A stretch of 64,000 nt of DNA from Geminocystis herdmanii PCC 6308 (GTDB lineage Bacteria; Cyanobacteriota; Cyanobacteriia; Cyanobacteriales; Cyanobacteriaceae): assembly GCF_000332235.1 (NCBI RefSeq), contig NZ_CM001775.1, positions 3,438,804 to 3,502,803 on the forward strand, read 5' to 3'. Shown here piece after piece: positions 22,301 to 53,120 of this stretch (the first letter of the stretch is position 1; each line of letters begins with the position of its first letter). The position numbers were made by a program, and so were the translations under genes. Below the pieces are notes generated by a model. The model did no database searches, was not told where the DNA came from, and saw nothing but the letters and a program-made list of their open reading frames with translations.

Positions 22301-22733
22301 CTATAAGACTCCTATTTTCCAAAAGTTTCAAGATTATCTCTTGGAAAGAGCAAGAGAATTACAAGATTTTGGCGGAGATCAAAATCCAATGTATCTCAAA
22401 GATAGTGCTATCATTGAAAGATTAGTTCGAGAGTATAAGTTAAAAACAGACGATCGAACTATGGCTTCCGCATCTTCAACACCTTCCTTCTTGACTGAAT
22501 CCGTTGCTACCCAAGTTTTACAAGCACAACCTCAAACCCTAGAAGCAGAGTTCGTTATTCAAGAGGAAACAAGTCGAGAGGAACTTCCCCCTTCCCCCCC
22601 AAGCTCAAGTCAAAGTACCAGTAACAATGGTGAAAGCATGGCAAAATTAAAAGAGTTAATGGAGATGTATAAGGAGGGTTTTCTCACCAGAGAGGAGTTT
22701 GATGCGGCTAAAAAGCAATTATTAGGACTTTGA
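19350..22733 (+). CDS. Tubulin-like protein (Tubulin_2 type), second copy
   Basis: About 1127 residues starting at ATG 19350 (MPEQEKRGISPT); the open frame extends further upstream without any coding signal. It shares most of its length with the preceding gene at high similarity, including GVGGTGAEVLSR, the GGTGSGM tubulin signature and the LTETELITDVTM block, so the pair is a tandem duplication. It differs mainly by an added linker of about 35 residues (PQTLEAEFVIQEE, then a serine/proline-rich stretch) before the same SHOCT-like tail. A palindromic hairpin follows the stop codon. Two diverged copies may form a heteropolymer, but that is speculation. Confidence 0.75.
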   Translation: MPEQEKRGISPTVLIGVGGTGAEVLSRVRRFAEETYGSLDKFPILGFLWIDTDKNYKVTNPKAAGSKFKDAEICLATVTGTEVETRLKNMNNYPWIQKWFPNELERSVTSLEQGAGQIRACGRFAFFCNYAKIRDSFLSVIQRVKGKNRYMYDTLGIEVANELNVFVTGSISGGTGSGMLIDLAYCIRHWLQGEGTTEITGIVPMPNAFAGISVGSGVMANGYAALMELSYFGDDRTVFEEKYSTSNLDLVRSEKPPFDFTYLVGTKNGQTEFSLGQIREAIAQNIFLDMTSGFAPHKRSIRDNIKQKWHGKDNQGRGYPKQFLSFGLSAIEIPITQIRACLGNRLAKDFVNWWLNDSVQLPPEMLELVRGEILKRMRLTETELITDVTMAKDRPLSALISQWLNQIRAEITEKNLLQCTQQGVNMMGAEKGKILTFIPYLQEKLETFQAENLKDNSPDRRVHGEYHQVMYRNQDAIVVQGCEALEKELYQILEDRNRGVKFAESFLLTVDQVFQNTAEQLRKQLEVQSKIEEAKYKQYETIKQDINELKDKFGVTKQAKMEQLCDTALTAVEGATNALVRKKSRAIALEILDRLQQHLQLLQRRFDKFRQIAIKIRDYFNQKSKEEADSADALQVNGIKLFERQELNDLYQDLIEQSAGGYQGARTAYDQGLDSICGIMSDDILNQASPLWKENRQADETMRLFDLTAIQDINHPDLQDIIYQRGKKVIEQAPEASKVRTELSSCTRFLKLYNDPTEQVDRIRRVHQQSHPLIMLNRGILDGAGFQPAKNESVAILGGFNATDNASQKMLPVITQFIKKPDDNIKPIGDNERHRLVFVQEMGGFSLRCIEGMEVIRQSYQEWLGQSIQAKRDKLAGKHAQLPIPVHLSKALAIWDIFPEDDRIYELVVQARAFNILFADINQATKEPTIRYQVETEIGMRKVDVASNWEEVTQVLEVPVCLPDKEEIQRQVNSIYEAAAKNEAYKTPIFQKFQDYLLERARELQDFGGDQNPMYLKDSAIIERLVREYKLKTDDRTMASASSTPSFLTESVATQVLQAQPQTLEAEFVIQEETSREELPPSPPSSSQSTSNNGESMAKLKELMEMYKEGFLTREEFDAAKKQLLGL

Positions 22734-29898: not shown

Positions 29899-30480
29899 AT
29901 GAAAAAGGATAATATTTTCGGTGGTTTAGTTCTCACAGTATCGGCTTTAGCCTTGGGTTCTATTTTTTCTCCTCCTGTGTTAAGTCAACAGAGAAAATTT
30001 TTTTGCGGAACTGATAAAGGAGTCCCGGCAACTATGGTCAGTACGGGAAATAATCAAAATGTTGCAATTATCAGATGGGTATCGGGGGCTTTTAACGATG
30101 CTGGTTATGATAATAAAACTCGTTGTGAAATGATTTCTAATCGGTTTCAATCTTTTAGCGATAAGGGAAGTTTAAAAGTAATAACCACAGGAAGACATCC
30201 CAGCAATGGTTTACCCATTATATGTGCTTTAAAAGATAAAACAGTACCCTGTAACGGAGATTCTCAGTTATTTACTTTGAAAAAAGGTCAAGATGCGAGT
30301 AAAACATTGCGTCAATTGTTTGATGTTCGCAGTGGTGCGACAAACCAAGCCTTAAATGAAACTCTTGGCCGTGTTTATATAGATTTTGAAGATTACTTAA
30401 AAGAGAAAGATGCTACGTTGGATAATGAAATAAAAACAGAAACACAAGAAAGCAATGTAGAACGACAATCATTGTTTTAA
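29899..30480 (+). CDS. COP23-domain secreted protein
   Basis: A 193-residue protein with a signal peptide (about 1-29, ending VLSQQ) and a COP23-type domain: FFCGTDKGVPATM, IIRWVSGAF, RCEMISNRFQSF, GLPIICAL and PCNGDSQLFTLKKGQDA. Family members are named for a circadian-oscillating membrane protein in Cyanothece. The family has several conserved cysteines, seen here, and no known catalytic activity. In cyanobacterial genomes it is often found beside vWA and trypsin-like proteins, as here. Confidence 0.78.
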   Translation: MKKDNIFGGLVLTVSALALGSIFSPPVLSQQRKFFCGTDKGVPATMVSTGNNQNVAIIRWVSGAFNDAGYDNKTRCEMISNRFQSFSDKGSLKVITTGRHPSNGLPIICALKDKTVPCNGDSQLFTLKKGQDASKTLRQLFDVRSGATNQALNETLGRVYIDFEDYLKEKDATLDNEIKTETQESNVERQSLF

Positions 30481-30837
30481 GTAAAGATATATTGTAATCT
30501 TAATTAAACTCAGCAAGGTCGTATTTTTGATGTGGTGTTGAATTAGTAAAATGCGATCGCATCTTATTAATTCAAATATTTTTTCATCATCATCATAGTT
30601 TATCAATAGGGCTTGGGTAGCTTTGTCGATCGAACTTAGGGTAAATAGATAGTGCGATCGCATTGGCAAACTACTACGTTTCATCTCCGTTAAATCACGA
30701 AATATTGGCACTCGATCGATAACAGCTTTAGCAATTACATTGGCATAATCTTCATTATTAATCTCTAAATAAGAATCATTGTGACTCTGTTTGATGTCGG
30801 AGTGATAAAGAATAACAGGAATACGAGTATCCTTAAA
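30469..30837 (-). pseudogene. Gene fragment, possibly DndB/DGQHR-like
   Basis: A minus-strand open frame of 139 codons runs 30469-30888, but its first part is antisense to the tnsA remnant, so only about 30469-30837 looks like an independent protein fragment. The text VIAKAVIDRVPIFRDLTEMK followed by LPMRSHYLFTLSSID resembles the conserved core of DndB/DGQHR proteins as I remember it. DndB represses DNA phosphorothioation genes. Both ends look truncated. Assignment is uncertain. Confidence 0.35.
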
Positions 30838-32914
30838 CAAGGCTCTGACTATCAACCTTGGTTGTTGATTCAAGATGTAGCATCTCAAGGTTTAGCAACT
30901 CGTATAAAAGGCATAAAAAGTAAAAGAGCTTTTAACTGTTAACTAATAGTTTATTATAGTTGTTTATACCTACTCACGGGATAAAGGTTGACATTTTTTT
31001 AAAATATGTTAGCTTTTAATGAAGTCGATAACCAAGACTGTTAAAACTATTTAATTTAAAGATTAAATTAAATAAAAATTAGTTATTATTCAAGATTAAT
31101 CAATTAATTAGAATAATAAAAGTAGGGTGGGTTACACCCGAATCAACGCTTGTGGACAGTATCAAGCCGACTTGACTGGTAGAAGCAAGAAGTAAACGTC
31201 ATAGGTAACTATGAGTAAGTTTTATATAACAGTTCAACATTTTATGAGTAACTTTGAGCTATCCTACTTTTATCTGTTGGAATGGTCGCCTGTTATTTAT
31301 GACATAAGAAAGCAATATCCCCTATTACCTTTAGAGGAAATCATTGCCATTGCTGAATTAGCAGGAATTAATCACCCAATAGACCCCCAAACAAAAGAGC
31401 CGATCGTGATGACTACTGATTTTTTGCTCACGGTAGGTCAAAAAATAGACACCATAGAACAAGCTCGAACTCTCAGGCAAAGTAAGGATATTCAATCCCA
31501 TAGAACCATTGAAAAGTTAGAAATTGAGCGTTTATATTGGCAAGAAAGAAATATTGATTGGGGAATTGTCACAGAACAAGAAATTCCCGAAAATCTTGTT
31601 AAAAATCTATCTTGGCTTCATCCTTATCACGATTTGGAAAATCTATATCCTTTATCTGAAGCATTTGGACCTGGTTCTGTTTATCAGATAGATGCCACGA
31701 TCGGCGACATTTATTTGGTTAGTTCTTTGGATCGAAATAAAATTATTGGTCGTCCTGTAATCTATATTGTAATAGATGTTTTCACTCGCATGATAGTCGG
31801 GTTTAGCGTCAGTTTAGAAGGACCTAGTTGGCTCGGCGCGATGTTAGCCCTTGAGAATGTAACTACGAATAAAGTCGAGTTTTGCCGTCAGTATGGAATT
31901 GAGATTACTCCTGAAGACTGGCCTTATCATCATTTGCCTGAATCTATTTTAGCCGATCGAGGTGAATTTGAAGGTTACAATGCTGATAATTTAGTGAATG
32001 CTCTCAATATTCGTGTTTCTAATACACCGCCTTATCGAGCAGATTGGAAAGGAATTGTCGAAAGAAATTTTGGCTTAACTAATGAAAAGATGATTCATTG
32101 GCTACCCGGAGCGGTTAGAAAACAACGAGAAAGAGGGGATAAGGATTATCGACTAGATGCAGTTTTGGACTTACATCAATTTCGACGACTAATGATTCAT
32201 CAAATCCTTGATCATAATCATAATCACTATTTGAAGGATTACTCAATGGATGAATTTATGATTCAGGATTATCTGCAACCTTATCCCATCGATTTATGGA
32301 ATTGGGGAATACAAAATCGAGTAGGTCATTTGCGAACTCAATCAGAAGATGTTATTCGTCTGAATTTATTACCATCAGCACAAGCATCTGTAACGGCTCA
32401 AGGAATTTATTACAACGGTTGTTGCTATACTTGTGAATTAGCCTTAAGAGAGCAATGGTTTGTCAAAGCCAGAAATGAGAGACGATGGAAAGTCAAAATA
32501 GCTTATGATCCTCGTTTCGTGGATCATATTTATTTACGTTTGCGTGATAGCCCAGTCTTAATCACCTGTAATTTAGTTGAAGCCGATCTCAGATTTAAGG
32601 GTAAAGATTGGTATGAAGTTGTTGAATATTTTGAATTACAAAAACAATATCAAGAATCTTCTAAAACTAGAAAACAGCAAACTCAAGCTAATTTTCACGC
32701 CCAAGTTGAACAAATTGTTTCAGAAGCACACAAACAAACATCTCAAGCGAAAATTCCTCAAAGTAATCGTTCCCGTGTTCAAGGGATTCTTCAAAACCGT
32801 TGCACCGAAAAAGAATATGAACGATCTAAAAATTTAGGCGTTGAAGAAAACACTATCCAAGAACTAGCAGAGATAATTCGTAAACGTTCAGGGGGGGGAA
32901 ATATGGTAGTTTAG
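30838..32914 (+). pseudogene. Decayed tnsA-tnsB of a Tn7-like transposon, deletion-fused and interrupted
   Basis: TnsA (end-cleaving endonuclease) text starts near 30838 (GSDYQPWLLIQDVASQGLATR), is cut by a 304-bp insert at 30928-31231, and resumes exactly in frame (VQHFMSNFELSYFYLLEW, then VMTTDFL, IDWGIVTEQEIP). Without the TnsA C-terminal domain or the TnsB N-terminal domains, the frame then passes directly into the TnsB DDE core (GPGSVYQIDAT, ILADRGE, GIVERNF). In the intact frame from 31211 the DDE residues are D161, D249 and E284 of 567 residues. A natural TnsA-TnsB fusion should be near 900 residues, so several hundred residues have been deleted in frame. The TnsA start is also missing. 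The gene is unlikely to be active. Confidence 0.8.
30928..31231 (+). mobile_element. Non-autonomous IS200/IS605-like element, copy B, inside tnsA
   Basis: A 304-bp element inserted after AAAGA in tnsA. Precise removal joins K-R to V-Q-H-F and restores the reading frame, which fixes its borders. There is no target duplication or terminal inverted repeat, and hairpins lie near each end. The inverted copy near glmS also follows AAAGA, so AAAGA is the likely insertion target, as expected for IS200/IS605 elements. Confidence 0.7.
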
Positions 32915-32971
32915 AGACATGGAACAAGAGCAACTACTGAAAACGAATTTTACACCATCGAAGAATGGGAT

Positions 32972-33322
32972 TTGACTCCTTCTGGGGTGAAAAATTTTGT
33001 AGTGCATCAAAACCAGAGAATTGAACAACTAGAAAAAGAACTGGAAGAATTACAAAAAAGACAAGAAAATCTGGAAGAGAAAGTTAATAGTAATTCAAAC
33101 AATTCAAACATTTCACCATCAACGGAAATTGTCAAACCAGAAAAGAAACAAAAACCCAAAAAAACAAAAAGAAAAAGAGGTGGACAAAAAGGTCATGTTG
33201 GAAATCACAGAGAATTATATCCCGAATCAGAATGCCAAAGGGTGGAAGACCACTTACCACCAACCTGTAAATGTTGTAGAGAGAAACTATCGGGAACAGA
33301 CGACCATCCTTATCGACTTTGA
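32972..33322 (+). pseudogene. IS66-family transposase remnant
   Basis: The N-terminal part of an IS66-like transposase: an N-terminal leucine-zipper helix (RIEQLEKELEELQKRQENL), a basic linker, then KRGGQKGHVGN and the zinc-finger CKCCREKLSG ending at DDHPYR. The catalytic DDE portion is missing; the homology stops near 33320. It lies just after tnsB, where tnsC would be expected, and a short frame at 32919 (MEQEQLLKTNF) may be the tnsC start that it disrupted. Confidence 0.7.
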
Positions 33323-33362
33323 ACACTTCCAAAATAACAATGAAAAAAGTACCTTAGAGAAG

Positions 33363-33394
33363 GTTAAATTATACAACTTTATTCCCCTATTACA
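33363..33394 (-). mobile_element. Isolated Tn7-like end of the second family
   Basis: About 32 bp nearly identical to 39835-39867 and in the same orientation: TTATACAACTTTATT, four variable bases, then TATTACA. It carries one TnsB-like site only, so it is a truncated transposon end left from an earlier insertion or deletion. Confidence 0.6.
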
Positions 33395-33402
33395 CGATCG
33401 AG

Positions 33403-33537
33403 CATTTTAGTCAAGAAGGAATATTTGCAAAAAAATGGCAAATTGTCCGTAAGGCTGGTTTAAGAAAAGAGATTGAGATGTTACCATCAATACAACAAAT
33501 TCTTGATGAATACATTGATTCTCTCAATTTTACCTGA
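33403..33537 (+). pseudogene. 3' fragment of an unrecognised gene
   Basis: A 44-codon open tail (HFSQEGIFAKKWQIV ... QQILDEYIDSLNFT, then stop) between two transposon ends. It reads like the true C-terminus of a protein but has no start and no recognised family. Confidence 0.35.
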
Positions 33538-33550
33538 TTAAACCAGCAAT

Positions 33551-33647
33551 GGTTTCCAACTTTATTTAATTTTCTTTTTATCCTGACTAACGGAAAATTA
33601 GTATTTTGAAACTGTTTGGAGTTTCCAACTATATTATTCTTTGACAG
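33551..33647 (-). mobile_element. Tn7-like transposon end, distal (left-end type)
   Basis: The outer 27 bp (33621-33647, ending TTTGACA) are the inverted match of 14574-14600 with one mismatch. A second TnsB-like site, GGTTTCCAACTTTATTT, lies at 33551-33567, about 70 bp inward. Spaced sites are typical of a Tn7 left end. The end cuts directly into a helicase gene remnant, so the sequence outside is a deletion junction or an older element. Confidence 0.8.
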
Positions 33648-34132
33648 TTAATCTTGTTAATAGTCTTGCTCATAAATGGTTACAGTCAACCCACGCTGAT
33701 AAATGTGATACTTCCTGTAATGTATGTTTGCAAGATTATCGTAATTTACCCTACCATCCTGTTTTAGATTGGAAGTTAGCCTTAGATATGGCTCGATTGG
33801 TGAGTGATGCAAATGCTATTATCGATTTACAAACACCTTGGGGTAATCAACTTAACCCTTGGAGTCGTTTGAGACAAGGTAATAACCCACCAATTCCAGC
33901 TACTCTCCAATTATTGGGATATAGTTCACCTGTGCAATTTGGATCTTTAATCGGCTTTAAACATCAAAGACGTGATCGTAAGGATATTTTGATATTAAGG
34001 CATCCTTTATGGAATAATGATCATTCTGAGTGGATTAATGCAAGTTAGATCGCTCTTAGTCAATATTCAGGCTATAACATCATAGCTGGTAATCCTTTTA
34101 TTCTGCTTAGAAGACCTGCCGAATATGTTTAA
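33648..34132 (+). pseudogene. C-terminal remnant of a DUF1998-type DEAD-box helicase
   Basis: Translation gives LVNSLAHKWLQSTHADKCDTS with a Cys cluster (CDTSCNVCL) followed by QDYRN, H, LDWKLALDMARL. This is the zinc-binding C-terminal (DUF1998) pattern of large superfamily 2 helicases such as MrfA. A TAG at 34046-34048 interrupts the frame, which then continues for 27 codons (LSQYSGYNII ... LLRRPAEYV) to the natural stop at 34130-34132. The motor domains are missing, cut off at the transposon end. The adjacent exonuclease gene is a plausible former partner, as in the MrfA-MrfB pair. Confidence 0.6.
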
Positions 34133-34155
34133 TAAAACTTTATTAGTATATTGTA

Positions 34156-34974
34156 ATGAATATTCTAATTTATGATACAGAAATTATTAATTGTATCCTT
34201 TCAAAATCAGAAAAAATAGATCATAATTTATCCTATTGTCTAGGTTGGGATGATTATTCGGGTATGGGAATTTCTGTTGTTGGTACTTGGCGTAATTATG
34301 ATTTACTAAAAATGGGGGAAAATCGTTTAACAATTCCTAAACCACTAGGTAAATTTGAAGCATTTGTTAATGAGAATAATTTACTAAATCAACATCTTGG
34401 GAATAACTTAAATAGCTTCAATTGTTTACAAAAGATAGTCAATCGAGCTGATAAAATTGTCGGTTTTAATTCAACAGCATTTGATGACAAATTATGTCAG
34501 GCTAACGGTATTGATATTAAAACAAATTATGATCTATTGTCAGAAATTCGTATAGCAACAAATCAACCTGCTGAATACGTCTATGGTTTAACTAGAAACG
34601 GTTATGCACTTAAAGACTTATCGAGAGCAAATTTAACTATTAATAAAACATCTACGGGTGAATTAGCTCCTGTTTTATGGCAGAAAGGGAAAAAACAAGA
34701 AGTAATTGATTATTGTTTAAATGATGTAAAAATATTAAAAGAATTATATTTTTTATTTATTAAAGGAGAACTTTACGATCCAACTAATGGAGGTAAATTA
34801 CCTTATAAAAAGGGTTCGTTGATCAGAATAGAAGTTGATGGTTTAGGACAAAAAATCATAGCTTTATATTTAGGAGCAGAAAAAGCAAATCCACGTCACT
34901 ATCACTATTCTAATTATTATTTTTTACCTTTAGAGAAGCTAGAAGTGTGGAAAAAACTAACAAATAATCTTTAG
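34156..34974 (+). CDS. DEDDy-type 3'-5' exonuclease-like protein
   Basis: A 272-residue RNase H-fold nuclease. Exo I is YDTE (Asp7, Glu9), Exo II is VGFNSTAFDD (around 102-111) and Exo III is the YCLND set (Tyr186, Asp190), so all four acidic ligands of a DEDDy enzyme can be placed. It starts 24 bp after the helicase remnant stop on the same strand. Helicase-exonuclease pairs such as MrfA/MrfB excise damaged DNA, but this link is inferred from order only. It converges with the AlkB-like gene, 13 bp apart. Confidence 0.65.
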   Translation: MNILIYDTEIINCILSKSEKIDHNLSYCLGWDDYSGMGISVVGTWRNYDLLKMGENRLTIPKPLGKFEAFVNENNLLNQHLGNNLNSFNCLQKIVNRADKIVGFNSTAFDDKLCQANGIDIKTNYDLLSEIRIATNQPAEYVYGLTRNGYALKDLSRANLTINKTSTGELAPVLWQKGKKQEVIDYCLNDVKILKELYFLFIKGELYDPTNGGKLPYKKGSLIRIEVDGLGQKIIALYLGAEKANPRHYHYSNYYFLPLEKLEVWKKLTNNL

Positions 34975-34987
34975 TCTTCAAATAATA

Positions 34988-35524
34988 TTAGATTTTGTTG
35001 ATGATTATTTTACTAATAGTGTTGCGAAATATATCTTTAAGATGCCAGAAAATGATACACCAACGCTCTTGATTTACAGCTTTGATTCCATGTAACATTT
35101 TACAATTAAATTTAATAACCTCTCCATCTGTTAGATGATAACACTGAGGTTGTAATTTTTCTCCTTTTCCTACCATCTCCGCCATTAAAAAAGTTGCCTC
35201 ACCCAAATTGATGCTAACAGCAGTGGATGAAAAAACTGTATGATCTCGATGTAGGTTAATTTTTACTCCTTGTTGATACAATAATAGTAGTCCAATATCA
35301 AAATTGGGTAAAACTCGATCGCCTAGAGCTTCTAAACGCTCATCTCTAAAACCTTCTGTAATGGTTGGTTGTTTTTTTAAATCACAATAACGACGAATCC
35401 ATAACTCTTTTCTACCCTTAGCATAACGACTAATCGTAGGCTTGAGCAAATATCGATGATTTTGACACCAATTATGTAAATCTTGGAGATTTTGCCCCTG
35501 AATTTTACCAATTTTTTCTAACAT
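34988..35524 (-). CDS. 2-oxoglutarate/Fe(II) dioxygenase, AlkB-like
   Basis: A 178-residue dioxygenase. The iron ligands are His92 and Asp94 in LHRDHTVFSS and His145 in MLHGI, and Arg154 in ERWCIIFW is positioned to bind 2-oxoglutarate. The H-x-D-H-T-V-F and VSINLG pattern recalls AlkB-type nucleic-acid demethylases, although the nucleotide-recognition lid is short. Its start codon lies only 14 bp from that of the divergent reverse transcriptase gene, so each promoter must sit inside the other gene or in shared sequence. Confidence 0.68.
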   Translation of the reverse strand: MLEKIGKIQGQNLQDLHNWCQNHRYLLKPTISRYAKGRKELWIRRYCDLKKQPTITEGFRDERLEALGDRVLPNFDIGLLLLYQQGVKINLHRDHTVFSSTAVSINLGEATFLMAEMVGKGEKLQPQCYHLTDGEVIKFNCKMLHGIKAVNQERWCIIFWHLKDIFRNTISKIIINKI

Positions 35525-35538
35525 AATAATTAATTGTA

Positions 35539-38500
35539 ATGATAACTTTAAGTACTGCTAACCTAAGTTTAGTCAAGGAATTTTTAGAAAATTTAAAAAA
35601 TAAAGAAGCATATCAATTTCCTGATTATTTACAAAATATTTACTCAATAATAATCGATGATTATTGTAAACAGAATCCCAAATTTAAACAAGATTTTAAC
35701 TATAGAGAATGTGTGAACAAAATTTATCAATCCAATGCACCAAATGTAAACAGTGATGACAAAAATCATATCTTAGAACAATTTTATTGTTTTTTCCCCA
35801 CACACTACTTTAAGTTTTTACAGTCTTTAGTGATAACAGAACTAGAGAATATAGAAAATAATAGTACAAATATTTTAACATGGCAATCTGTGACATTCAT
35901 CGATATTGGCTGTGGTGCAGGGGCTGGTAGTTTAGCGTTATTAACATTAATCATCGAATATCAAAAGTTTTTAGTCGAAAAAAATAAACCTATTTCTCCC
36001 ATTAGGATTTATTTAATTGGTTTAGATCCTAGTGAAAATATGCTTTTATTATATAAAGAAATTTTAGACGATTTAAAAAATAAATTTAATGATTATTTAA
36101 TTGATATAAAATATGATATTTTAAAGAGAGCTTTCCCTGAAGGAATTGACGAGTTAATCGATAGATTTAAACCACTAAATAGTCACTCTATTTTTCTCGG
36201 AATATGTAACGTTATTCGCCCTTTATGGGATTGTTTTAACAGGGGAGAGACTCCTGCACAGGAATTAATAGATCAAGCACTTAATGATCAAAAATTTAGT
36301 AATCCTGAGTTTGGTTCAGCAGAAACTAGAGCAATAAAATCGATTTTAGAAAAATGGGAATTAGATCGACTAAGTTTATTAAGTATTGCTACAAAAGATC
36401 GTTACAGATGGAATCTAAAATTAGGCTTAATAACTCAAAAATTCAGAAAAGAAATATCAATTTCTAATGGAAAAGAAATAATTGAGACAACGGTTCATTA
36501 CTATAATCCCATAAGTTCCTTTTTTGAAAAAAATAAAGATTCTTATCCATCTGAATATTACTACGATTATTCTACTTTTACTAATGAATCTTATCAAAAT
36601 AATCAACAATTACATTCTGTATTAAACTTAGAAAATATTGAATTAGCATGGTCACGCTCTCGCCGTTACATTCTCCATGAAACCTTTGCCGATGAAGCAG
36701 AAATCAAATTATTTGACGATGACATTGAAAGAAAATTGGATAGATTACGTCAAAAAATACTAGCTAGACAATGGATGGCTTTGAATGTTGAGCATACTTT
36801 ATTTTATAATTTACCAAAAAATCCAAATAAATCTCGTCCTAAAACATTACCAAGAATAGAAGAACAAATCCTATCAGCTAGTATTATTCAATCTTGTCCA
36901 GTTAATGATTTAGATTTACAAAATAGTTATAGCCATCGTTTAAACGATGATCGAGATGAATTTTTATATTATTACTGGTTAGATCAATGGCTAAAATATA
37001 TCAGAGAAACCCATAAAAATGCTAAAGATAATAGTGTCTTTCGTTCTGATGTTAAAGGATGTTATCAACATATTAAACAAAAAGAATTACTAAACAATAT
37101 TAATAAGTATTTGTCCACTGAAAAAAGAATAACAGAAATTTTAGAAAAAATTATATTCAGAGATTTTAAGAATGAAGTTCATGAAGAAGAACATACTTAT
37201 GGCTGTGGTTTATCGCAAGGACATATTGCTTCAGGTTTTTGGGCTGAAGTTTATTTAGCAAAAATAGATCGAATTTTTAGAGAACCACCACAAGAATTAA
37301 GCTATTTACAACAAGTAAACTTAGCCCGTTATGCTGACGATATGGTAATTACATTTGATGATAATGAAAATAGTTTTGATAAAATCGAGTCCGACTTGAA
37401 AACTCAGTTCAAGGTAATAGGATTAGAATTATCTGATGAAAAAACTCAAAGATTTCCAGAAGATGGACAAGAATATATTAGCGAGACAACTTTAGATAAA
37501 AAATTGGATCAATTAAGCAACAAATTCAGAAGATTATTATTATCTATTTATAATATTAATGATGATTTTATTAAAGAATATAAAAATAATCGTGAACAAT
37601 TTATCTCGGATTACTATAAGCTCATAAAACTGATTGGTATTAATATTTCAAGAGCATGGTTGCAAAGAAATATATCTCAATCTTATAACGAAAGAAAAAC
37701 AGATTTAGACTTCTGGCAATCATTCGCTCAAATGATGTTTAAAATATCACAAAAAATTATCAAATTTACATTAGACAATATACCTAAACGCCTAAATATT
37801 TGGGCAATAAATCACGAATTAAAGTTTACTGAATTTCCGATACAGTCAGATGGCGAACATTGGTTAGAAGAATTTAAACAGAAAAATAAAAACTGGTATT
37901 CAGAACTAATTGATTTCAAAAAAGAATTAATTAATTTGTGGAAAGAAAATTTATCTGAACTAGATAAAGATGATTTATCCTTAAAAGAAGAAAAACAAGC
38001 TCAACGTCGTTTAAAATTTACTGCAGGACGTTTATGTACTTTAGGATTAGATGATATAGCTGATGATTTAGTGAAAATTATTATTGAAAAACCTTGGTTA
38101 GTACCTGTACATTTCTTATGTCGGAGTTTAGCTAATTTAGATCGTGCTTTGGAACTTTTAGAGCAAATTATTGAGAGTAGTCTAAATTCTTACGTTAAAT
38201 CTCATGCTATTCGTGCTTTAGCTGATATTAAATCACCTCTACCAGAAAAAGGTATTGACTTAATATGTGAGTATATTCAATCAAAAGATACATCTATCTG
38301 TGAAAAATTGAAAGCATCGGAAGTGATTTTATTTATTAAACAATTAACTGATATTAAAAATAAATTAAGTCGAGAAAAATTACAACGATTAATTGAGGAA
38401 GAAAAAGATTTATATTTAATCAAAAATTATATTTTAATCTTGGGTCAAGTTTATGGAGAAGAAACTATTACCGATTATTTAAAACAACTGCAAAAGCAAT

Positions 38501-38724
38501 ATTTTATTAATTATGTAAACTGCTTAGAAGATAAATGTGAAGATTCTCAATGTCATAATTTAATTCTAATTGACGCTATACAGTTTGTTTTGTGTAATCT
38601 AATAAATAATTCAAATAAAAATAATTTATTTAGTCAAGATGAACCCGAAATATTATCAAAATATTATGCTAAGAAATATCCTGTTACAGAAATGGAAACT
38701 ATGACTGGCTCAAATTCTCCATAA
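35539..38724 (+). CDS. Methyltransferase-like/reverse transcriptase/helical-repeat fusion protein
   Basis: A 1061-residue protein with three regions. Residues about 85-260 look like a Rossmann-fold S-adenosylmethionine methyltransferase: motif I FIDIGCGAGAGS (120-131) and the acidic residue after strand 2 in GLDPS (Asp163). A reverse transcriptase follows at about 400-660: motif A FRSDVKGCYQH (Asp504), motif B GLSQGHIASGFWAE (557-570) and motif C RYADD (597-601), so the three catalytic aspartates are present. From about 800 the sequence is helical, with HEAT-like stretches (RLCTLGLDDIADDLV, SHAIRALADI). This C-terminal layout resembles UG/Abi defence reverse transcriptases. I know of no standard family with this N-terminal methyltransferase. 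No group II intron maturase domains are seen. Confidence 0.8.
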   Translation: MITLSTANLSLVKEFLENLKNKEAYQFPDYLQNIYSIIIDDYCKQNPKFKQDFNYRECVNKIYQSNAPNVNSDDKNHILEQFYCFFPTHYFKFLQSLVITELENIENNSTNILTWQSVTFIDIGCGAGAGSLALLTLIIEYQKFLVEKNKPISPIRIYLIGLDPSENMLLLYKEILDDLKNKFNDYLIDIKYDILKRAFPEGIDELIDRFKPLNSHSIFLGICNVIRPLWDCFNRGETPAQELIDQALNDQKFSNPEFGSAETRAIKSILEKWELDRLSLLSIATKDRYRWNLKLGLITQKFRKEISISNGKEIIETTVHYYNPISSFFEKNKDSYPSEYYYDYSTFTNESYQNNQQLHSVLNLENIELAWSRSRRYILHETFADEAEIKLFDDDIERKLDRLRQKILARQWMALNVEHTLFYNLPKNPNKSRPKTLPRIEEQILSASIIQSCPVNDLDLQNSYSHRLNDDRDEFLYYYWLDQWLKYIRETHKNAKDNSVFRSDVKGCYQHIKQKELLNNINKYLSTEKRITEILEKIIFRDFKNEVHEEEHTYGCGLSQGHIASGFWAEVYLAKIDRIFREPPQELSYLQQVNLARYADDMVITFDDNENSFDKIESDLKTQFKVIGLELSDEKTQRFPEDGQEYISETTLDKKLDQLSNKFRRLLLSIYNINDDFIKEYKNNREQFISDYYKLIKLIGINISRAWLQRNISQSYNERKTDLDFWQSFAQMMFKISQKIIKFTLDNIPKRLNIWAINHELKFTEFPIQSDGEHWLEEFKQKNKNWYSELIDFKKELINLWKENLSELDKDDLSLKEEKQAQRRLKFTAGRLCTLGLDDIADDLVKIIIEKPWLVPVHFLCRSLANLDRALELLEQIIESSLNSYVKSHAIRALADIKSPLPEKGIDLICEYIQSKDTSICEKLKASEVILFIKQLTDIKNKLSREKLQRLIEEEKDLYLIKNYILILGQVYGEETITDYLKQLQKQYFINYVNCLEDKCEDSQCHNLILIDAIQFVLCNLINNSNKNNLFSQDEPEILSKYYAKKYPVTEMETMTGSNSP

Positions 38725-38934
38725 AGAACTTTTTGGGGATTCAGATACGATCGCAACTGCATATCTTCATTTATAACTAATTATCCAAACTCGATATTAC
38801 AACAGGACGATGGAAAAATTATCAGAATATCTTTCTTTACTGCATAACAGATTCCTTCAGAATCGCTTCTAATTCCTGGAATAAGACAGTCACTTTATTA
38901 ATTTACTAACTTTTTTATTACTCATAATCTTATT
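38725..38934. other. Non-coding stretch after the reverse transcriptase gene
   Basis: About 210 bp with no supported gene. It is a candidate position for a non-coding RNA template or partner of the reverse transcriptase, but no clear structured element or repeated a1/a2 stem was recognised. Confidence 0.3.
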
Positions 38935-39557
38935 ATTCTTTTTTCTCTAATTGAATTTGATCTAAATTTACCCACTTTATTTTCGGATGATGGAAATTTA
39001 TAACGGTGGAACAAGACTCTTAGTCACTCTAATTTACCAATTAAGTTAGATACTGAAGAAATTATCGGCAAAAATTTAACTATTTTTCGTAAATTAGATA
39101 ACGGTTTTACTGTTAAGAAAAATGAATGTAGTAGTATTTCTGAAGCCCTGTTGTTTTATCTTGAAAATGAAGCTGAAGTAGCCTTTTGTGAATGGGGACA
39201 ATTAATTTGGTTACAGGCAAAAAATCACTATTATCAACGGGAATTATTAGCTTCTTTAAGTGATAAATTAGTTTATGGTGAGGAGTTTAAAAAGAATATC
39301 AAGACTTTACAAAATCGCCCTGACAGAGTACAATTAGTCAATCAAAGATGTGATCAATTATGTCGTTTTTTAGAGTCTCTCGATAATAATAAATATAACC
39401 CCCCTCATTGGATTTTAAACCTCTAGTAAAAAGTCCTTATCCCGACTCTAATCATGAATGTGACGCATGGAATGATCAAGATGCACATAGATTATTTGGA
39501 CACTGGTTAGGTAATGGACAGTATCAGATCGATCGTATCGCCAAAGGATTGCATTAA
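38935..39557 (+). pseudogene. Broken unrecognised gene with stop codon and frameshift
   Basis: One frame reads FDLNLPTLFSDDGNL, hits TAA at 39001, continues RWNKTLSHSNLP through ENEAEVAFCEWGQLIWLQ to PPHWILNL and stops at 39424-39426. Protein-like sequence then resumes in another frame (SPYPDSNHECDAWNDQD ... IDRIAKGLH) to TAA at 39555-39557. So the gene carries at least one nonsense change and one frameshift. I do not recognise the family. Confidence 0.45.
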
Positions 39558-39709
39558 ATTTTCTGTTACGTTGAGATTTATTCCAACGATCTAATTTTGA
39601 TCATTAGTGCAATACTAAATTAGTTTATCTTCCCATAACGCTAATTAAGTTATAAATAAAATCTAAATTAGCACCTACTCTAAAGGCTTATTATGCAAAG
39701 GATTTAAAA

Positions 39710-39867
39710 ATTATACAACTTTATTTCCTTGAATTTTATTTGTGTAATTTAGCAGTTTCCTATTAAATTCAATAATATACAACTTTATTTTTGAAAGTAA
39801 CGAAAAGTAATAACGAAAATAGGTGTTTACGAGCGTTAAAATTATACAACTTTATTTATCTATTACA
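39710..39867 (-). mobile_element. Tn7-like transposon end, outer boundary of the island
   Basis: Three copies of ATACAACTTTATTT at 39712-39725, 39776-39789 and 39843-39856, spaced 64-67 bp, with the outermost followed by ATCTATTACA ending at 39867. Evenly spaced TnsB-like sites and the TGT...ACA terminus fit a Tn7 left end. It lies 49 bp before the end of the chromosomal ABC permease gene, marking the distal edge of the island that begins after glmS. Confidence 0.65.
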
Positions 39868-39915
39868 TATGTAAATAATTCATACTCAATCACCTCTTCT
39901 CACCTATGAACAAAC

Positions 39916-40785
39916 TTAACTCACTTTACGAGATAAAGATAAATTGACGATCGAAAGGACTAAAATAAAGGTAAAAAGTACTAAACCCATAGTAGAAGCA
40001 TAGTTAAAATCTAAATCTTTAAAGGCTTTTTCGTAAAGATAATAAACTACAGTTTTTGTCGCATTACGAGGGCCTCCTTGAGTTAACAAATATATTTCTT
40101 CAAATACTTTAGTGGCACTTAAAGCCGAAATAACCGCCACTAAAAAAATATAAGGTTTCATTAAAGGAATTGTAATATCCCAGTGTTTCTTCCAACCATC
40201 TGAACCTTCGATCGAAGCCGCCTCATACAATTCAGGAGATATACCTTGTAATCCTGCTAAATAGATAACCATGTAATACCCTAACCCTTTCCAAATGGTG
40301 ACAACCATCACACTCCAGATGGCAAAATCTGGACTCGTTAGCCAAGGAATACCATCCTTAAAACCTAGACTAAACCAAAATTGGTTTAAAATGCCATTTG
40401 ACCAATAAATCGCCTTCCATGCTAAACCAGCCACTACCATAGAAACCACTACAGGAGTATAGTAAGCGGTACGAAACCAGTTAATTCCTCGCAATTTTTG
40501 ATTGACAACAATAGCTAATATCAAGGAGAGAAAAACTAAAGGGGGTACAACTCCTAGGAGATAAATTAAAGTATTTATCAGGGTTTGACGGAATAATTTA
40601 TCTTCAGCCAGACGTTTAAAATTTTCTAACCCTACCCATTCAGGAGGCTGGGTTAAATCGTAGCCAAACTTGGTAAAACTCAAAGAAAAGGCTTGTAGGG
40701 CAGGATAAAAAACAATGATGGAGAGAATAATTAAAGCTGGAATTAAGAATAGATACGGAGTCAGTTTTCTAGTAATTTTCATCAA
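39916..40785 (-). CDS. ABC sugar transporter permease (LacF/UgpA type)
   Basis: A 289-residue inner-membrane permease with about six transmembrane helices. The first is at about 12-33, and the EAA loop that contacts the ATPase reads EAASIEGSDGWKKHWDITIP. This family imports oligosaccharides or glycerol-3-phosphate together with a second permease, a binding protein and an ATPase, none of which are next to it here. Before the island inserted it would have converged with glmS. Confidence 0.85.
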   Translation of the reverse strand: MMKITRKLTPYLFLIPALIILSIIVFYPALQAFSLSFTKFGYDLTQPPEWVGLENFKRLAEDKLFRQTLINTLIYLLGVVPPLVFLSLILAIVVNQKLRGINWFRTAYYTPVVVSMVVAGLAWKAIYWSNGILNQFWFSLGFKDGIPWLTSPDFAIWSVMVVTIWKGLGYYMVIYLAGLQGISPELYEAASIEGSDGWKKHWDITIPLMKPYIFLVAVISALSATKVFEEIYLLTQGGPRNATKTVVYYLYEKAFKDLDFNYASTMGLVLFTFILVLSIVNLSLSRKVS

Positions 40786-40917
40786 AGTTTATAAATATAA
40801 TTTACTTGTAATTAAAATTTTAGAATTTTGTCATCAAGTGCTAAATAAGTTATTATAAATTTCACTATGATTATTTTTCTCGATGATTCTTCATTTTTAA
40901 TTCTCAATTATCCATTC

Positions 40918-41712
40918 TCAATTAATTATGAGATTACTGCCATCAAAAACTCGAACTAAAGTACCTTCTGATGGGAAATCTTCAGGGCGCACGGTGATAC
41001 GATTACCTTTTATTATGTTGATATTAAAATTTGCTTCTTTGGCTAAGTCAACAAATCTTTGTACTCCTTGTAATTCACAAACATTTGCTTCCGTGGCGTT
41101 GGTTAAATATTGAGTGGGAATTACCATTCTAGGGTTTAAAATTTCGATCGCTTTCATGGCTTCTTCTGCGTTATAAGCCTTTGCACCTCCTCCTACGGGA
41201 ATAAAAATGATGTCAGGTGTACCCATTAAGATTTTTTGTTCGATGGAAATAGGGGAGGCAATACCGCCTAAGTGTAATAATTTTACCCCTCCTTGAGTCC
41301 ATTTCCACACTATATTATCACCGAATCTTCTACCGCCTTCTCGATCGTGCAGGGTTTTAATCCCTTGAAATTCAATATTATTTACATTATACACCCCCGG
41401 TTCAACCATTAATTGAGGATTATTGGGTAAACCCGAAGCCGAACCTTCATCAAGTAATCTACTGCTAATCATAACTAAATCGACTATGGGTTTAGGTGCT
41501 TGATATTTAGCAGTACAACCCAAGGGAGTAAAAGGATTAGCTAAAATTCTAATTTGGGGATTGGAAAACAGAAAGGCACTATGACCTAACCATTCTATAC
41601 TGACTTGCTTAGGAGATGCCATCGCTTTTTTTCCTTGAGAGTATTTAGTGGTTAAAAGAGTAGTTAATACTCCTGTACCAGTTAAGCGAATCCAGTCACG
41701 ACGATTAATCAT
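40918..41712 (-). CDS. Metallo-beta-lactamase-fold protein with Tat-like signal
   Basis: A 264-residue protein starting MINRRDWIRLTGTG, a twin-arginine-like signal. The body resembles UlaG-like metallo-beta-lactamase-fold hydrolases (EWLGHSAFLF, LLHLGGI, FIPVGGG-KAYNAEEAMKAIE, PRMVIPTQY). The canonical HxHxDH zinc motif is not seen; the corresponding place reads MISSRLLDEG, so metal binding may be reduced or lost. It is transcribed toward the permease with about 130 bp between. Confidence 0.7.
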   Translation of the reverse strand: MINRRDWIRLTGTGVLTTLLTTKYSQGKKAMASPKQVSIEWLGHSAFLFSNPQIRILANPFTPLGCTAKYQAPKPIVDLVMISSRLLDEGSASGLPNNPQLMVEPGVYNVNNIEFQGIKTLHDREGGRRFGDNIVWKWTQGGVKLLHLGGIASPISIEQKILMGTPDIIFIPVGGGAKAYNAEEAMKAIEILNPRMVIPTQYLTNATEANVCELQGVQRFVDLAKEANFNINIIKGNRITVRPEDFPSEGTLVRVFDGSNLIIN

Positions 41713-41967
41713 AATGTAAATGGTAGAAGATAGTTGAATTTTATAATATCAAAAACACTTTAACAAAGTAGGAGCGATCAAGATTAACTTTTTTTGTCCA
41801 TACTTATATATATTGATGGATATTTTCTGGTAATTGTTGCATCAATTTACAAATACTTGTAATTAAAAGTAATTTAAAAGTGTGAGTGATAAAGAGAGAA
41901 GTTAGGTGACAGGAGAAATACCTAAAAATTAAAATTTTGAGACTTTTTCAAGGTAACAAAGTTATTT

Positions 41968-44900
41968 TTATTCATTTTGCTGATTTTGTTGACAGAGAAT
42001 TAAATTGAGAATATTTAACTGGGATGAGGAGAAAATTTGTTGATCGGTAAATAACTTATATCTTAATAAGTTAAAGGTATAACTATTAAATAATAGAAAA
42101 GGAAATTCATGATAATATGAACCAATGGGTAGAACATTTTGTAAGGGAAATATATATCTTAAATAAGTTTCTAAAATCGATCGAAAACTTTTGTCTTCAT
42201 CTATTTTTCTTTCGGTTTCTTTCTCTAAATATTCTTTAATAATTTGAGGATGTATTAAGATAAAGAAAGGAAAGGCATAATATTGATCAAATTGTTGGCT
42301 AGTTTGTTGAATATATTTAGTCATTATATCATCATTATTCATCTTTTCTAAGAGTTCGATCGCACTGTGACTAGCAGTAATTAAATTATGATTAAATTGA
42401 TCACTATTACTAATAGATTTAAGTTTTGACAACAAATCTTTATAGATTTCTTTAATAACTTTCAATTCATAAGTTTCTTTAATTTTACGATTTTTTAAAG
42501 GAATAATTAACATATTTCCACTAATAAAACTAGGTTCGAGTCTGCCGATATTTAATAAATTATAAAGATTATTTTTCACAGATTTAATAAATTTATCGCT
42601 AAAAGATTCTCGAATATTAAGATAAGAAATAAGGTTATTTTTATTATCATTATTATCTATCCATTTTAAAAGGAAATCTGTTTTATCTAAAATTCTCGTT
42701 AATTCTTCAGCTATTTCCTTTAAATATTGTGCCTTATAGTTAGTAGAATATTCTTTGTTTAATAAAGTAATTAAATTTTTCATTTTGGCACTAAAAGTCT
42801 CCCCAACCGAAGATACAGATTTACCACCAATAGGGATAATTAAATAATTATTGTTACCAATTTTACCGTAACCATTAATTCTTGTTATAATCGAGGCTTT
42901 CAGTAAAATCAGCATATTGATAACGTTTAAAACCTTTTCTTGTAAGGATAATTGAGCAGATTCTTCATCATAAAAAATAGCTTCTTCCCACATATAAAAA
43001 TATAAAAATTTATCCTGATTATCATTAGTATTGGTAACTTCATTTTCGATAAATTCCCCTCTACCACGATAGATAACTTGGATAATTTCCATTAAATTTT
43101 GTTCAATATTAAAACGAGGTATATCAACTAAGATATGTCTGGATTTAGGAAAAGATAAACCTCGACTTCCTGAAGCCGTCATAAAAATAATTTTTGCTTG
43201 ATTTTGGAATTGTTTTATTTCCTGTTTATCAGCTTCGGAGTTATTACTATGAATTTGTAAATAGTCTTTATTTTCCCTAAAGTCTGGATAGATTTTTTCT
43301 AATTCAGTAATTAAATTTCTTAGGCGATTTTTGTCTTGAATATAAACAATAATTTGTTCATTATCTGGATTACTTAAAATAGATTTTATTTCATCAATAA
43401 TTGTTGTTTGCAACTGCCTAACTACACTTTTAGTTTTTTCCTCATAAAGATTTTCATTATATTTTTTTACTTCCATCAAAATTTGATAATTAATGGTTAA
43501 ACTTTGGGCGGGATAAGAGTTAGTATTAATAATTTGGGCTGGTTTTCTTTTAAAGTCAAAATTTGTGACGGATAGAGGTAAAATTGTTGAGTTTACACCA
43601 CGATAATATATTTTATCAGGTTCGGTTTTATTATCTTTGAGATGTTGATTAATTACTTGTTCATCGACGATCGAGGCATCGGCTATAATAATTTTAGGAT
43701 TAAAACCATAACTATTATTAGTGAGATTATATTTATCAAAAAATCGATTAATTCCCGATAAAAATTCGACACCACTACTATCTCCAGTTATTTCATCAAT
43801 CATGACAAAAAAGTGTTTAAATCTTTTGGCAACGGCAGTCATTTTTGAGTCAATAATTTTATTCTCTCTAGCATTATAAACAGATTCCAAAATTCGATCG
43901 AGATGTTTGAGAGTATCGTCATTTTCATTTAATTTTTTCAGAGATTGAATCGAAAGAGAGACGACTAAATGACGGGTATTTTTAGTTTGGATGATAGCGG
44001 AAATTCCTTGACAAAGACTATTTAAGACTCCAACACCTTTATTTTCTGCATTTTGGAATGTATCTTGATATTGTTGCCGAATTTGTGAATTAATTTTACC
44101 TTGACGGGGAGTCGGATTATTACCATCAATAAAGTTAACATTTTTGAGAGAAAATTCTCCTTGCCAGTCATCATTATCAGCAGAAGTAAAGTATTGAATG
44201 GTTGGTTTACCGCCATTATTTTTAATCAAATTGGCATTACTATTGATGGCGACTAACTCTTGTTTTTTTATGTCATTAAACTTATTAATAATATCGAGAT
44301 TAACTTGAGTGCGGGGGCTAATATATAAAAAGAGAAAACCATCGTTAAAATATTTCTTTAAAAATGTGACGATGGCAGTGGTTTTACCAATACCGGGATT
44401 GCCTGTGAGAAATAAGTAAGTGAGTTTCTCTTGATTCAAGGCTTGGGTGATAAGATGACTATGGGCATTTCTTAGAGTCAGATGGGGAGGAAGTTGTAGA
44501 GTCGTTGCTAATTCGGGAGAAATTGGTTCGATCGAGTTAACAAATTCTGTTATCTTTTCTGTATGAGAAATCGATTTGATGTAAGGTTTTGCAGAGGGGA
44601 AGAGATTAAATAGATTGTTAATAAAACTTTTACCATCGGGAAAACTTTTTCTAGCATTATATTTAATCACCTCGACAATATTGCTTTTCGCCTCCGAGAT
44701 GTCTTTTTTGTGATGCTGATAATAAATTTTTTGACAAGTTTTGAGTAAGTTAATGTTATCGGGGGTAACGGTAATAGCATTTACACTTCTGTCGCTATAA
44801 CCCATAATATTGATTTGTTTAATGTCAGTATCGGGATTAATAATTTTCTGTCGAGATAAAAATTGATAGAAACTATAACCATAACTACCCGCTTGAATGA

Positions 44901-45651
44901 GTTTTATCGTTTCCTTATCCTGTCTCTTAAAGCCTTGATAATATTTAGTTAAGTCGTTAGTAAAATTAACTCCTAAATTATCCCCATTTTCCCCTGTATC
45001 TATATTTAATCCTGAAAAAACACTTTTCGATCGTAAATAATTAACTTCCGTCAGCAGGATTTGCTTCCAGTTTTCGATGTCTTGTAAATCCTTAACATCC
45101 TGAAAAGACTTAACCGAAAAAATAGATAAATCGACAATTAAAAGATAATATTTTTGTCGCCGTTTAATCAGGATGAGAGTATCCGCGCGTAAAAACTCCC
45201 CTTCCTTGAGGTATCTATCAATATCTATCTCCATTTCACCTAACTGAGAGAGAATCAAAGAGAAATTTTCTTTTTCGCTTTTATGCTTGACAATACTAAA
45301 GCTACTTTCTTCCACAAAATTACACTGACAATAAACAATTTCTAAACGATGATAGTTTTGATTATCCACAATAGTATCGGCATATTCTCGAAACAAATTA
45401 AATCCCGACAAAAAACCCTTTTGCAATAACATCAATATCCAATCTTTAATAATCTGTTTATCCTTAGTATCAATAACTTTAGAATCATCAAGGATTTTTG
45501 TTTCAATTTTACTCAGATTGATTTTTTCTAAATCATCTTGATAAATAGTCGAAAAGTTATGCTTAATCTTTTCTTGATTAATAAAGGAAAGGATACCGAT
45601 ATTAAATCCAATTTCAAATAATCTGCCGAAGTTTGCTGAAGTTTTATCCAT
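41968..45651 (-). CDS. Large P-loop/superfamily 2 helicase-like protein
   Basis: A 1227-residue protein. Walker A is GNPGIGKT (417-424), and Walker B is VMIDE (616-620). Helicase-like C-terminal motifs follow: MTASGSRGLSFP (824-835, motif V-like) and QVIYRGRG (858-865, motif VI with arginine finger). An N-terminal segment (about 100-180) has GEFLRADTLIL ... LLIVDLS spacing that could be a PD-(D/E)XK-like nuclease core, but this is weak. The C-terminal 300 residues are helical and unrecognised. It is on the same strand as the methyltransferase cluster and separated from it by small cassettes, so a motor subunit of that system is the likely role. Confidence 0.6.
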   Translation of the reverse strand: MDKTSANFGRLFEIGFNIGILSFINQEKIKHNFSTIYQDDLEKINLSKIETKILDDSKVIDTKDKQIIKDWILMLLQKGFLSGFNLFREYADTIVDNQNYHRLEIVYCQCNFVEESSFSIVKHKSEKENFSLILSQLGEMEIDIDRYLKEGEFLRADTLILIKRRQKYYLLIVDLSIFSVKSFQDVKDLQDIENWKQILLTEVNYLRSKSVFSGLNIDTGENGDNLGVNFTNDLTKYYQGFKRQDKETIKLIQAGSYGYSFYQFLSRQKIINPDTDIKQINIMGYSDRSVNAITVTPDNINLLKTCQKIYYQHHKKDISEAKSNIVEVIKYNARKSFPDGKSFINNLFNLFPSAKPYIKSISHTEKITEFVNSIEPISPELATTLQLPPHLTLRNAHSHLITQALNQEKLTYLFLTGNPGIGKTTAIVTFLKKYFNDGFLFLYISPRTQVNLDIINKFNDIKKQELVAINSNANLIKNNGGKPTIQYFTSADNDDWQGEFSLKNVNFIDGNNPTPRQGKINSQIRQQYQDTFQNAENKGVGVLNSLCQGISAIIQTKNTRHLVVSLSIQSLKKLNENDDTLKHLDRILESVYNARENKIIDSKMTAVAKRFKHFFVMIDEITGDSSGVEFLSGINRFFDKYNLTNNSYGFNPKIIIADASIVDEQVINQHLKDNKTEPDKIYYRGVNSTILPLSVTNFDFKRKPAQIINTNSYPAQSLTINYQILMEVKKYNENLYEEKTKSVVRQLQTTIIDEIKSILSNPDNEQIIVYIQDKNRLRNLITELEKIYPDFRENKDYLQIHSNNSEADKQEIKQFQNQAKIIFMTASGSRGLSFPKSRHILVDIPRFNIEQNLMEIIQVIYRGRGEFIENEVTNTNDNQDKFLYFYMWEEAIFYDEESAQLSLQEKVLNVINMLILLKASIITRINGYGKIGNNNYLIIPIGGKSVSSVGETFSAKMKNLITLLNKEYSTNYKAQYLKEIAEELTRILDKTDFLLKWIDNNDNKNNLISYLNIRESFSDKFIKSVKNNLYNLLNIGRLEPSFISGNMLIIPLKNRKIKETYELKVIKEIYKDLLSKLKSISNSDQFNHNLITASHSAIELLEKMNNDDIMTKYIQQTSQQFDQYYAFPFFILIHPQIIKEYLEKETERKIDEDKSFRSILETYLRYIFPLQNVLPIGSYYHEFPFLLFNSYTFNLLRYKLFTDQQIFSSSQLNILNLILCQQNQQNE

Positions 45652-45705
45652 GTCACTAAAACCATAATACTAATATTTGCTCTAATTATTAAATCTCTTT
45701 AAAAA

Positions 45706-45963
45706 TTAGTTTTCATTTAAAATATCCTTTAATAATTCTGATGTTAAGGATACAACTTCTACATTATTAGAATTTAATAAATACTCATTAATTTCTGTTG
45801 CATCTTGTTTATAATTTTTACTTAATCCATTGCCTATATTTACAGAAAAATCTGTTAGTGCTTGTATTTTTATTTGTTTAATTTTTGATAAAACTCCTTT
45901 CTTGGAACTATCTTTTTTATCTTCTATACACTTTTCGATTTTTAATCTAATTAAAGTTTTCAT
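45706..45963 (-). CDS. Small unrecognised protein in the cassette array
   Basis: An 85-residue charged protein with a good Shine-Dalgarno sequence (AAAAAGGAGGAAATT before ATG), the same leader as the neighbouring toxin-antitoxin genes. No motif is recognised; size and setting suggest an antitoxin or orphan TA component. It lies 54 bp upstream of the helicase-like gene and may be cotranscribed with it. Confidence 0.5.
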   Translation of the reverse strand: MKTLIRLKIEKCIEDKKDSSKKGVLSKIKQIKIQALTDFSVNIGNGLSKNYKQDATEINEYLLNSNNVEVVSLTSELLKDILNEN

Positions 45964-45996
45964 AATTTCCTCCTTTTTATTATAATCTGAGTATAT

Positions 45997-46221
45997 TTAT
46001 AACAAGTCTAAAAATTCATAAACTGTTAAATCACAATCTCTTAAAATTTGGGCAAATAAACCCTTCCCAATGGTTTCATTTCCATGAACTGGAATAACTG
46101 TTTTTCTGCCGTCAGGATGTGCTAAAAAGTGATGACTTCCTTTAATTCTAATCACTGAAAAATTAGCTTTTGTTAAAGCCTTAATCATCTTCTTTCCATT
46201 TAAAGCCGGGATATTACTCAT
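45997..46221 (-). CDS. hicA: HicA-family mRNA interferase toxin
   Basis: A 74-residue double-stranded RNA-binding-fold toxin. The catalytic histidine lies in IKGSHHFLAHP, and the PVHGNETIGKGLFAQILRD block is typical of HicA. It starts one base after the hicB stop codon, so the two are translationally coupled. Confidence 0.88.
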   Translation of the reverse strand: MSNIPALNGKKMIKALTKANFSVIRIKGSHHFLAHPDGRKTVIPVHGNETIGKGLFAQILRDCDLTVYEFLDLL

Positions 46222-53039: not shown

Positions 53040-53120
53040 TGGTTTTTCTCCTTTTTTTCCCTTTGGTATAATGATAATTGGATAGATTCCTAATTTCTAA
53101 AATTTTTCTCTAAATTTGAC

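Follow-up and report, generated by a model that had tools for sequence, protein, structure and literature searches.

A divergent UG35 reverse transcriptase with a predicted METTL17/Rsm22-like N-terminal domain in Geminocystis herdmanii PCC 6308

The stretch of the Geminocystis herdmanii PCC 6308 genome analysed here (64,000 nucleotides, positions 3,438,804 to 3,502,803 of contig NZ_CM001775.1; hereafter the window) carries on its + strand a single unbroken frame of 1061 amino acids for a reverse transcriptase (RT). Judged by profile comparison, the protein is a divergent member of UG35, a catalogued group of defence-associated RTs. The gene is laid out as follows.

35539..38724, + strand: UG35-type RT, 1061 amino acids (reading frame and PADLOC RT_UG35 match)
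35587..36573, + strand: METTL17/Rsm22-like N-domain (residues ~17-345) with a predicted S-adenosylmethionine (SAM)-methyltransferase fold, a helical lead-in to residue 106 being followed by a Rossmann core (AlphaFold2 model, fold match, and UG35 match of residues 1-345)
35896..35931, + strand: methyltransferase motif I, FIDIGCGAGAGS, residues 120-131 (sequence)
36019..36033, + strand: methyltransferase motif II, GLDPS, residues 161-165, with the acid D163 (sequence)
36604..37521, + strand: RT core, residues ~356-661, with catalytic D504, D600 and D601 and GLSQG at 557-561 (RVT_1, alignment and fold match)
37522..38721, + strand: helical C-terminal repeats, HEAT-like, placed as in AbiA (HEAT_2 below cut-off, helices of the model, AbiA match and UG35 match)

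We suggest, with a probability of about 0.6, that this gene encodes a divergent anti-phage RT of the UG35 group, in which a SAM-fold module with a predicted METTL17/Rsm22-like architecture is joined to an RT with intact catalytic residues and to a helical tail of the Abi type. The UG35 group itself was already known. What is added here is the conservation of the fusion, the METTL17/Rsm22-like N-domain as predicted, the split of partner genes by clade, and the divergence of the window copy.

The PADLOC profile RT_UG35 (PDLC03774) matches the protein with 1013.7 bits over residues 22-1053, that is, over profile positions 2-935 of 938. It is the top RT group in PADLOC, the runner-up being UG25 at 190.8 bits. 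When the protein was cut in three, the N-domain (residues 1-345) scored 307 bits against RT_UG35, the RT 375 and the C-terminal part 295; since the N-domain matches by itself, it belongs to the group as already catalogued. A preliminary description, made from the sequence, had proposed a new type of defence RT. That proposal is not upheld: by profile comparison the RT falls inside a described class, and the end-to-end match together with the match of each part, N-domain included, rules out a new one. A generic RT or group II maturase was also rejected (TIGR04416 scored 70 against a cut-off of 300), as was membership of UG25, whose score is secondary to, and far under, that of UG35.

UG25 and UG35 were reportedly defined by Mestre and colleagues (2022). 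No recognisable UG35 paper was found in the literature searched, the scope of which excluded the defining paper, and the available part of PMC8934634 treats UG25 just as an RT class. The UG25 profile (PDLC03763) nevertheless matches the N-domain of the window protein alone (56.4 bits) and its C-domain alone (55.3 bits), and thus the methyltransferase-RT-helical architecture, as far as profiles can tell, probably extends to UG25. A search of 395 genomes from two further phyla with this profile found no full-length UG25; 55 of 201 and 53 of 194 genomes gave RT-core matches only.

Full-length UG35 is rare: of 386 cyanobacterial genomes six have it, counting that of the window, and it was found in none of the 14 other genomes of the host's family. 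A scan of genome contigs returned 42 loci, 30 of which (L038-L067) were taken as UG35, 25 by alignment along the window protein, L061 by PADLOC, and L044, L064, L066 and L067 by a tblastn match alone. These are mostly cyanobacterial, with three from Anaerolineae (L038, L048, L067) and one from Acidobacteria (L061). The remaining 12 comprise two Drt1a loci (L068, L069), one UG26 locus (L070) and nine left unclassified (L071-L079). The alignment and tree consist of 29 rows, namely 25 UG35 loci, L010-L012 and the window copy; L044, L061, L064, L066 and L067, with longest frames of less than 700 amino acids, stand outside the alignments, and L008 and L009 were omitted because they are the same loci as L051 and L050. 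Without L042, L058 and L062 the N-domain alignment has 26 rows.

The methyltransferase-RT fusion is genuine and is kept in the family. Of the 29 rows, 27 contain residues 110-345, the exceptions (L058, L062) being broken or shortened frames. In 388 genomes of the host's order, an N-domain profile search, which scored up to five candidates per genome and included some genomes that had supplied profile sequences, gave matches in 31, of which 25 were strong (E-value (E) <=6.3e-43) and 6 weak (E 3.4e-10 to 1.1e-4). At 24 of the 25 strong loci the N-domain is followed within the stretch by a UG35 RT, whether or not the frame is shared, and the 25th is cut by the contig end, so that no free-standing N-domain was seen among the strong matches. 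The question raised in the preliminary description, whether homologues keep the two domains fused, is therefore answered in favour of the fusion. In nine sequence pairs the ratio of nonsynonymous to synonymous substitution rates falls within 0.18-0.42 in the N-domain, 0.09-0.61 in the RT and 0.11-0.44 in the tail, indicating that all three parts are under purifying selection. Several UG35 copies are broken. Viral contigs held no relatives, and 12 plasmid records and one phage record gave RT-core matches only.

In Pfam, the protein matches RVT_1 at 65.3 bits (cut-off 29.6) and HEAT_2 at 23.4 bits, under the cut-off of 27.7. An N-terminal methyltransferase match (E 0.065) was far under threshold, and the N-domain thus had to be tested by structure. 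What the preliminary description had read from the letters was recovered: the two methyltransferase motifs and GLSQG at the positions listed, Asp504 in RT motif A, RYADD at 597-601, and a helical C-terminus, the full-length model being all helix from about residue 644. Its methyltransferase fold likewise held as a prediction, in that a fold search with an AlphaFold2 model of residues 1-345 returned methyltransferases.

The catalytic residues D504 and D600 are invariant in the 29 rows, and D601 is present in 28, the exception being the frameshifted copy L058. The structure nearest to the RT core is that of the group II intron-like RT G2L4 (Z-score (Z) 22.4, 17% identity), tied with a diversity-generating retroelement (DGR) RT (Z 21.6), and group II RTs follow at Z ~20, the three kinds together spanning Z ~19-22. 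The G2L4 alignment, however, covers model residues 355-647 only, and neither the N-domain nor the tail. AbiA resembles the window protein in having an RT followed by helical repeats; 384 residues align (model 355-962, Z 16.2), the alignment running into the tail, whereas its hidden Markov model scores just 31 bits, over the RT. We know of no methyltransferase-fold domain in AbiA. The DNA that Abi RTs synthesise is protein-primed and untemplated, and UG enzymes of class 2 work from an RNA template (PMC12632851).

The AlphaFold2 model of the N-domain, built from 26 sequences, has a predicted local distance difference test score (pLDDT) of 75.9, a predicted template modelling score of 0.82, and the strand-helix order of a class I methyltransferase. 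Model and alignment together predict a seven-stranded Rossmann fold with motif I and the motif II acid present. The best 50 Foldseek matches by E-value are mostly methyltransferases with low template modelling scores. When Foldseek's best 1000 chains were re-ranked with a second structure aligner, METTL17/Rsm22, an assembly factor of the mitoribosomal small subunit, took ranks 1-9 (Z 17.9-19.7 over 247-268 residues), and the next fold reached Z 12.6 over 201. The top-ranked chains belong to structures of mitoribosome assembly in human, yeast and trypanosome, and the predicted fold shares with them the helical lead-in. METTL17/Rsm22 was found again with the full-length model (Z 18.9-20.1), which was built mostly from the same sequences and hence is not independent. 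The N-domain is METTL17-like by predicted fold, a likeness that does not establish family membership. A resident cyanobacterial Rsm22 was considered as donor of the domain and rejected, weak matches being found in 14 of 40 genomes (best 23.4 bits), four of them just above the cut-off of 23.

Partner genes were surveyed at 33 loci (L038-L067 and L010-L012), where several helicases are fragmentary or cut by contig ends. A superfamily 1 helicase adjoins the RT in 20 of them, downstream in 10 and upstream in 10; the two that were scanned (L056 and L042) are of the UvrD type and carry an inserted DEDDh exonuclease domain. In L060, which lies inside the downstream-helicase group, there is no helicase in the 1.7 kb available. 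A DUF1848 gene stands divergently upstream of the RT in 7 of the 33 loci. PADLOC identifies the L056 helicase as RTasHel (1081 bits) and the L053 gene as RTasDUF1848 (190.6 bits), and since both are already listed there as RT-associated the partner links are not new. Each arrangement forms a single group among the 24 labelled rows of the tree. At the Anaerolineae locus L038 (7607-17328), the UG35 gene is immediately preceded by an AddB-like gene and followed by UvrD-like and PD-(D/E)XK genes.

Members of the downstream-helicase group have an extra N-terminal segment, whose matches to ribbon-helix-helix families in L056 are weak (FitA-like, E 5e-6, slightly below cut-off) and which we read, from sequence, as helix-turn-helix (HTH)-like. 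Divergently upstream of HTH-fused copies there is a small open reading frame of ~100-120 amino acids with no convincing Pfam family (L056:8788-9120; relatives in L010, L011, L054, L059, L060 and L065). A strong terminator-like hairpin (-12.6 to -25.3 kcal/mol) precedes the RT start by 125-224 bases in all nine testable HTH-fused loci (L010, L011, L012, L049, L054, L056, L059, L060 and L065), L055 being too near a contig end. In seven aligned loci the hairpin covaries: 6 of 13 pairs change on both sides and 97.7% of cells are paired. The hairpin may end a short + strand RNA or, since in L056 it borders on a minus-strand site resembling a promoter, may be the 5' hairpin of a divergent transcript. 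In eight upstream stretches from other clades and the window the best hairpin reached -8.7 kcal/mol, and in ten downstream stretches -10.2 kcal/mol; for the upstream-helicase clade, the region before the helicase was aligned and inspected by eye. Rfam gave no match in window positions 30000-46000 or in five relatives.

The surroundings of the window copy contain the following features.

31211-32914: TnsA-like N-terminus and Mu/TnsB-type transposase in one frame
33641-34048: relic of the Druantia DruE C-terminus (78 bits, profile 1725-1842 of 1887)
34156..34974, + strand: RNase H/DEDD exonuclease-like gene, upstream and co-directional (Pfam RNase_H_2, E 7.5e-4, below cut-off)
34988..35524, - strand: AlkB/2OG-Fe(II) oxygenase-like divergent neighbour, its start codon 15 bp from the RT gene (Pfam 2OG-FeII_Oxy_2, E 0.0022, weak)
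39151-39426: relic similar to a portion of a CARF-RelE protein (53 bits), 427 bases beyond the RT gene
41968-45651: 1227-amino-acid protein with a helicase C-terminal domain and a weak nSTAND3-like P-loop match, inside an inserted-looking segment
49875-53039: type IIG restriction-methyltransferase (966 bits)

The window region is variable and rich in defence genes. In two of three sister genomes examined, the counterparts of the genes at 40918-41712 and 56466-57176 are neighbours, and thus the segment of 41.9-56.4 kb looks inserted. The AlkB-like gene was rejected as a partner of the RT: its relatives occur in two further genomes of the family, and both of these lack a full-length UG35. Among the relatives, CBASS genes lie 1.1-5 kb upstream of the RT of L049 and DrmD 3.3 kb downstream of that of L063. 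The preliminary description had called the RT defence-associated. As a statement of context this is supported around both the window copy and some of its relatives, and the anti-phage function itself would be a deduction from sequence.

A number of points weigh against the proposed anti-phage RT with a METTL17/Rsm22-like module, and those that bear directly on the nature of the N-domain are given with the alternatives below. An anti-phage function, SAM or RNA binding and methyl transfer are properties that we infer for UG35 from sequence and models. The METTL17 likeness derives from predicted structures, and in the N-domain model pLDDT falls below 50 at residues 65-70, 225-234, 252-258 and 287-294, two of these stretches lying between b4 and b5. 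The defence neighbours of relatives were chosen by eye, without a background rate. The window copy differs from other UG35 copies as the most divergent of the 29 rows, with neither an RTasHel nor an RTasDUF1848 gene next to it; its branch is the longest in the tree (2.79), which leaves its position there unsure.

Of the alternatives, the one that fares best, at somewhat less than even odds, is that the N-domain is no longer catalytic and serves to sense SAM or purely as a structural element. None of the 26 N-domain rows departs from D122, G124, C125 and G128 of motif I, and each has an acid, Asp or Glu, at position 163. All 10 HTH-fused rows that cover motif I, however, read DVGC-x-[ML]-G, with the second glycine lost, and in four of these the Asp of motif II is replaced by Glu; the b4 motif differs by clade. 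Motifs I and II point to SAM binding and not to catalysis. Against such a loss, D-x-G-x-G-x-G and the acid are kept in the window copy, as in the remaining non-HTH rows covering motif I, and by these residues the window copy likely binds SAM.

Slightly less probable again is that the N-domain is a generic class I methyltransferase, with DNA, RNA or protein as its target, and that its METTL17 likeness is an architectural convergence. Pfam Rsm22 (PF09243) was not among the matches of the 26 N-domain members at E <=0.1, and these members match several generic methyltransferase models weakly. METTL17 was absent from the best 50 Foldseek matches by E-value. Local profile-profile comparison gave 94.1% for Rsm22 and 93.7% for control methyltransferases, and hence the sequence hardly separates the two. 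The test set was seven of the eight Rsm22 loci found (L098 was omitted), and the controls were 5 of 12 loci that came from the weak search for a cyanobacterial Rsm22 donor and were taken as other methyltransferases, so that they are not neutral. Scored with the UG35 N-domain profile, the five controls reached at most 9.2 bits, two of them (9.2 and 8.5) standing above six of the seven Rsm22 sequences, which had 7.5 bits or less. By contrast, the seventh, a bacterial Rsm22 (L095), at 23.5 bits, was the best of the 12, and global hhalign leans to Rsm22 (90.9% versus 73.5% for the same controls). The Z gap of ~5 to 7 to the next fold, and an alignment that takes in the helical lead-in, also argue for METTL17/Rsm22.

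It is unlikely that the protein is a housekeeping or repair RT, similar to G2L4, and not a defence gene. The nearest RT-core structure would fit such a role, as would the linkage of many relatives to a UvrD helicase into which a DEDDh exonuclease is inserted. Its rarity would not, nor would its setting among defence genes and relics in a variable region, the defence genes near some relatives, or the broken state of several copies. More improbable still is a dead remnant, as the relics of DruE, CARF-RelE and TnsAB-like genes around it and its long branch might suggest, since 1061 stop-free codons are maintained in an AT-rich region with the RT and motif I/II residues intact.

If the UG35 protein is indeed an anti-phage RT, it would be a polymerase that makes DNA on infection, by analogy with AbiA, AbiK and the DRT systems, and the helical tail would probably organise the enzyme. 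The N-domain would bind SAM and a structured RNA, or methylate that RNA, and in this way sense infection or set the RT on its target. In most relatives, the helicase-exonuclease or the DUF1848 protein probably assists; the window enzyme probably works unaided.

According to PMC9892005, the mRNA channel of the small subunit is blocked by METTL17, which also holds h31, and this suggests that UG35 (and UG25) RTs could be ribosome-coupled defence polymerases. Their METTL17/Rsm22-like module would bind the 30S subunit or rRNA, and the RT would sense or exploit the state of translation during infection, or translation would be shut down by a block of the mRNA channel; the hairpin of HTH-fused copies might in that case be part of a templating or regulatory RNA. 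We regard this as a long shot because a cysteine site is absent. METTL17 has four cysteines forming an Fe-S site that aids rRNA coupling (PMC11046306), whereas the N-domain has no counterpart of this conserved cluster: C125 of motif I is the sole cysteine among the invariant and 90% columns of the 26 rows. The lack of this site, the lack of a PF09243 match and the fusion to an RT set the window protein apart from METTL17/Rsm22.

A domain shaped like a ribosome-assembly methyltransferase on an RT gives a concrete hypothesis, namely that rRNA or SAM would be the target or the means of action of some defence RTs, and the clade-by-clade exchange of partners provides natural variants for testing. 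Elsewhere in the window, a 1051-amino-acid protein beside the type IIG enzyme (both within 49875-56276) has no Pfam or PADLOC match at E 0.001, and 15811-22733 encodes two adjoining large proteins that are tubulin-like (Tubulin_2) and show weak SHOCT matches at the C-terminus.

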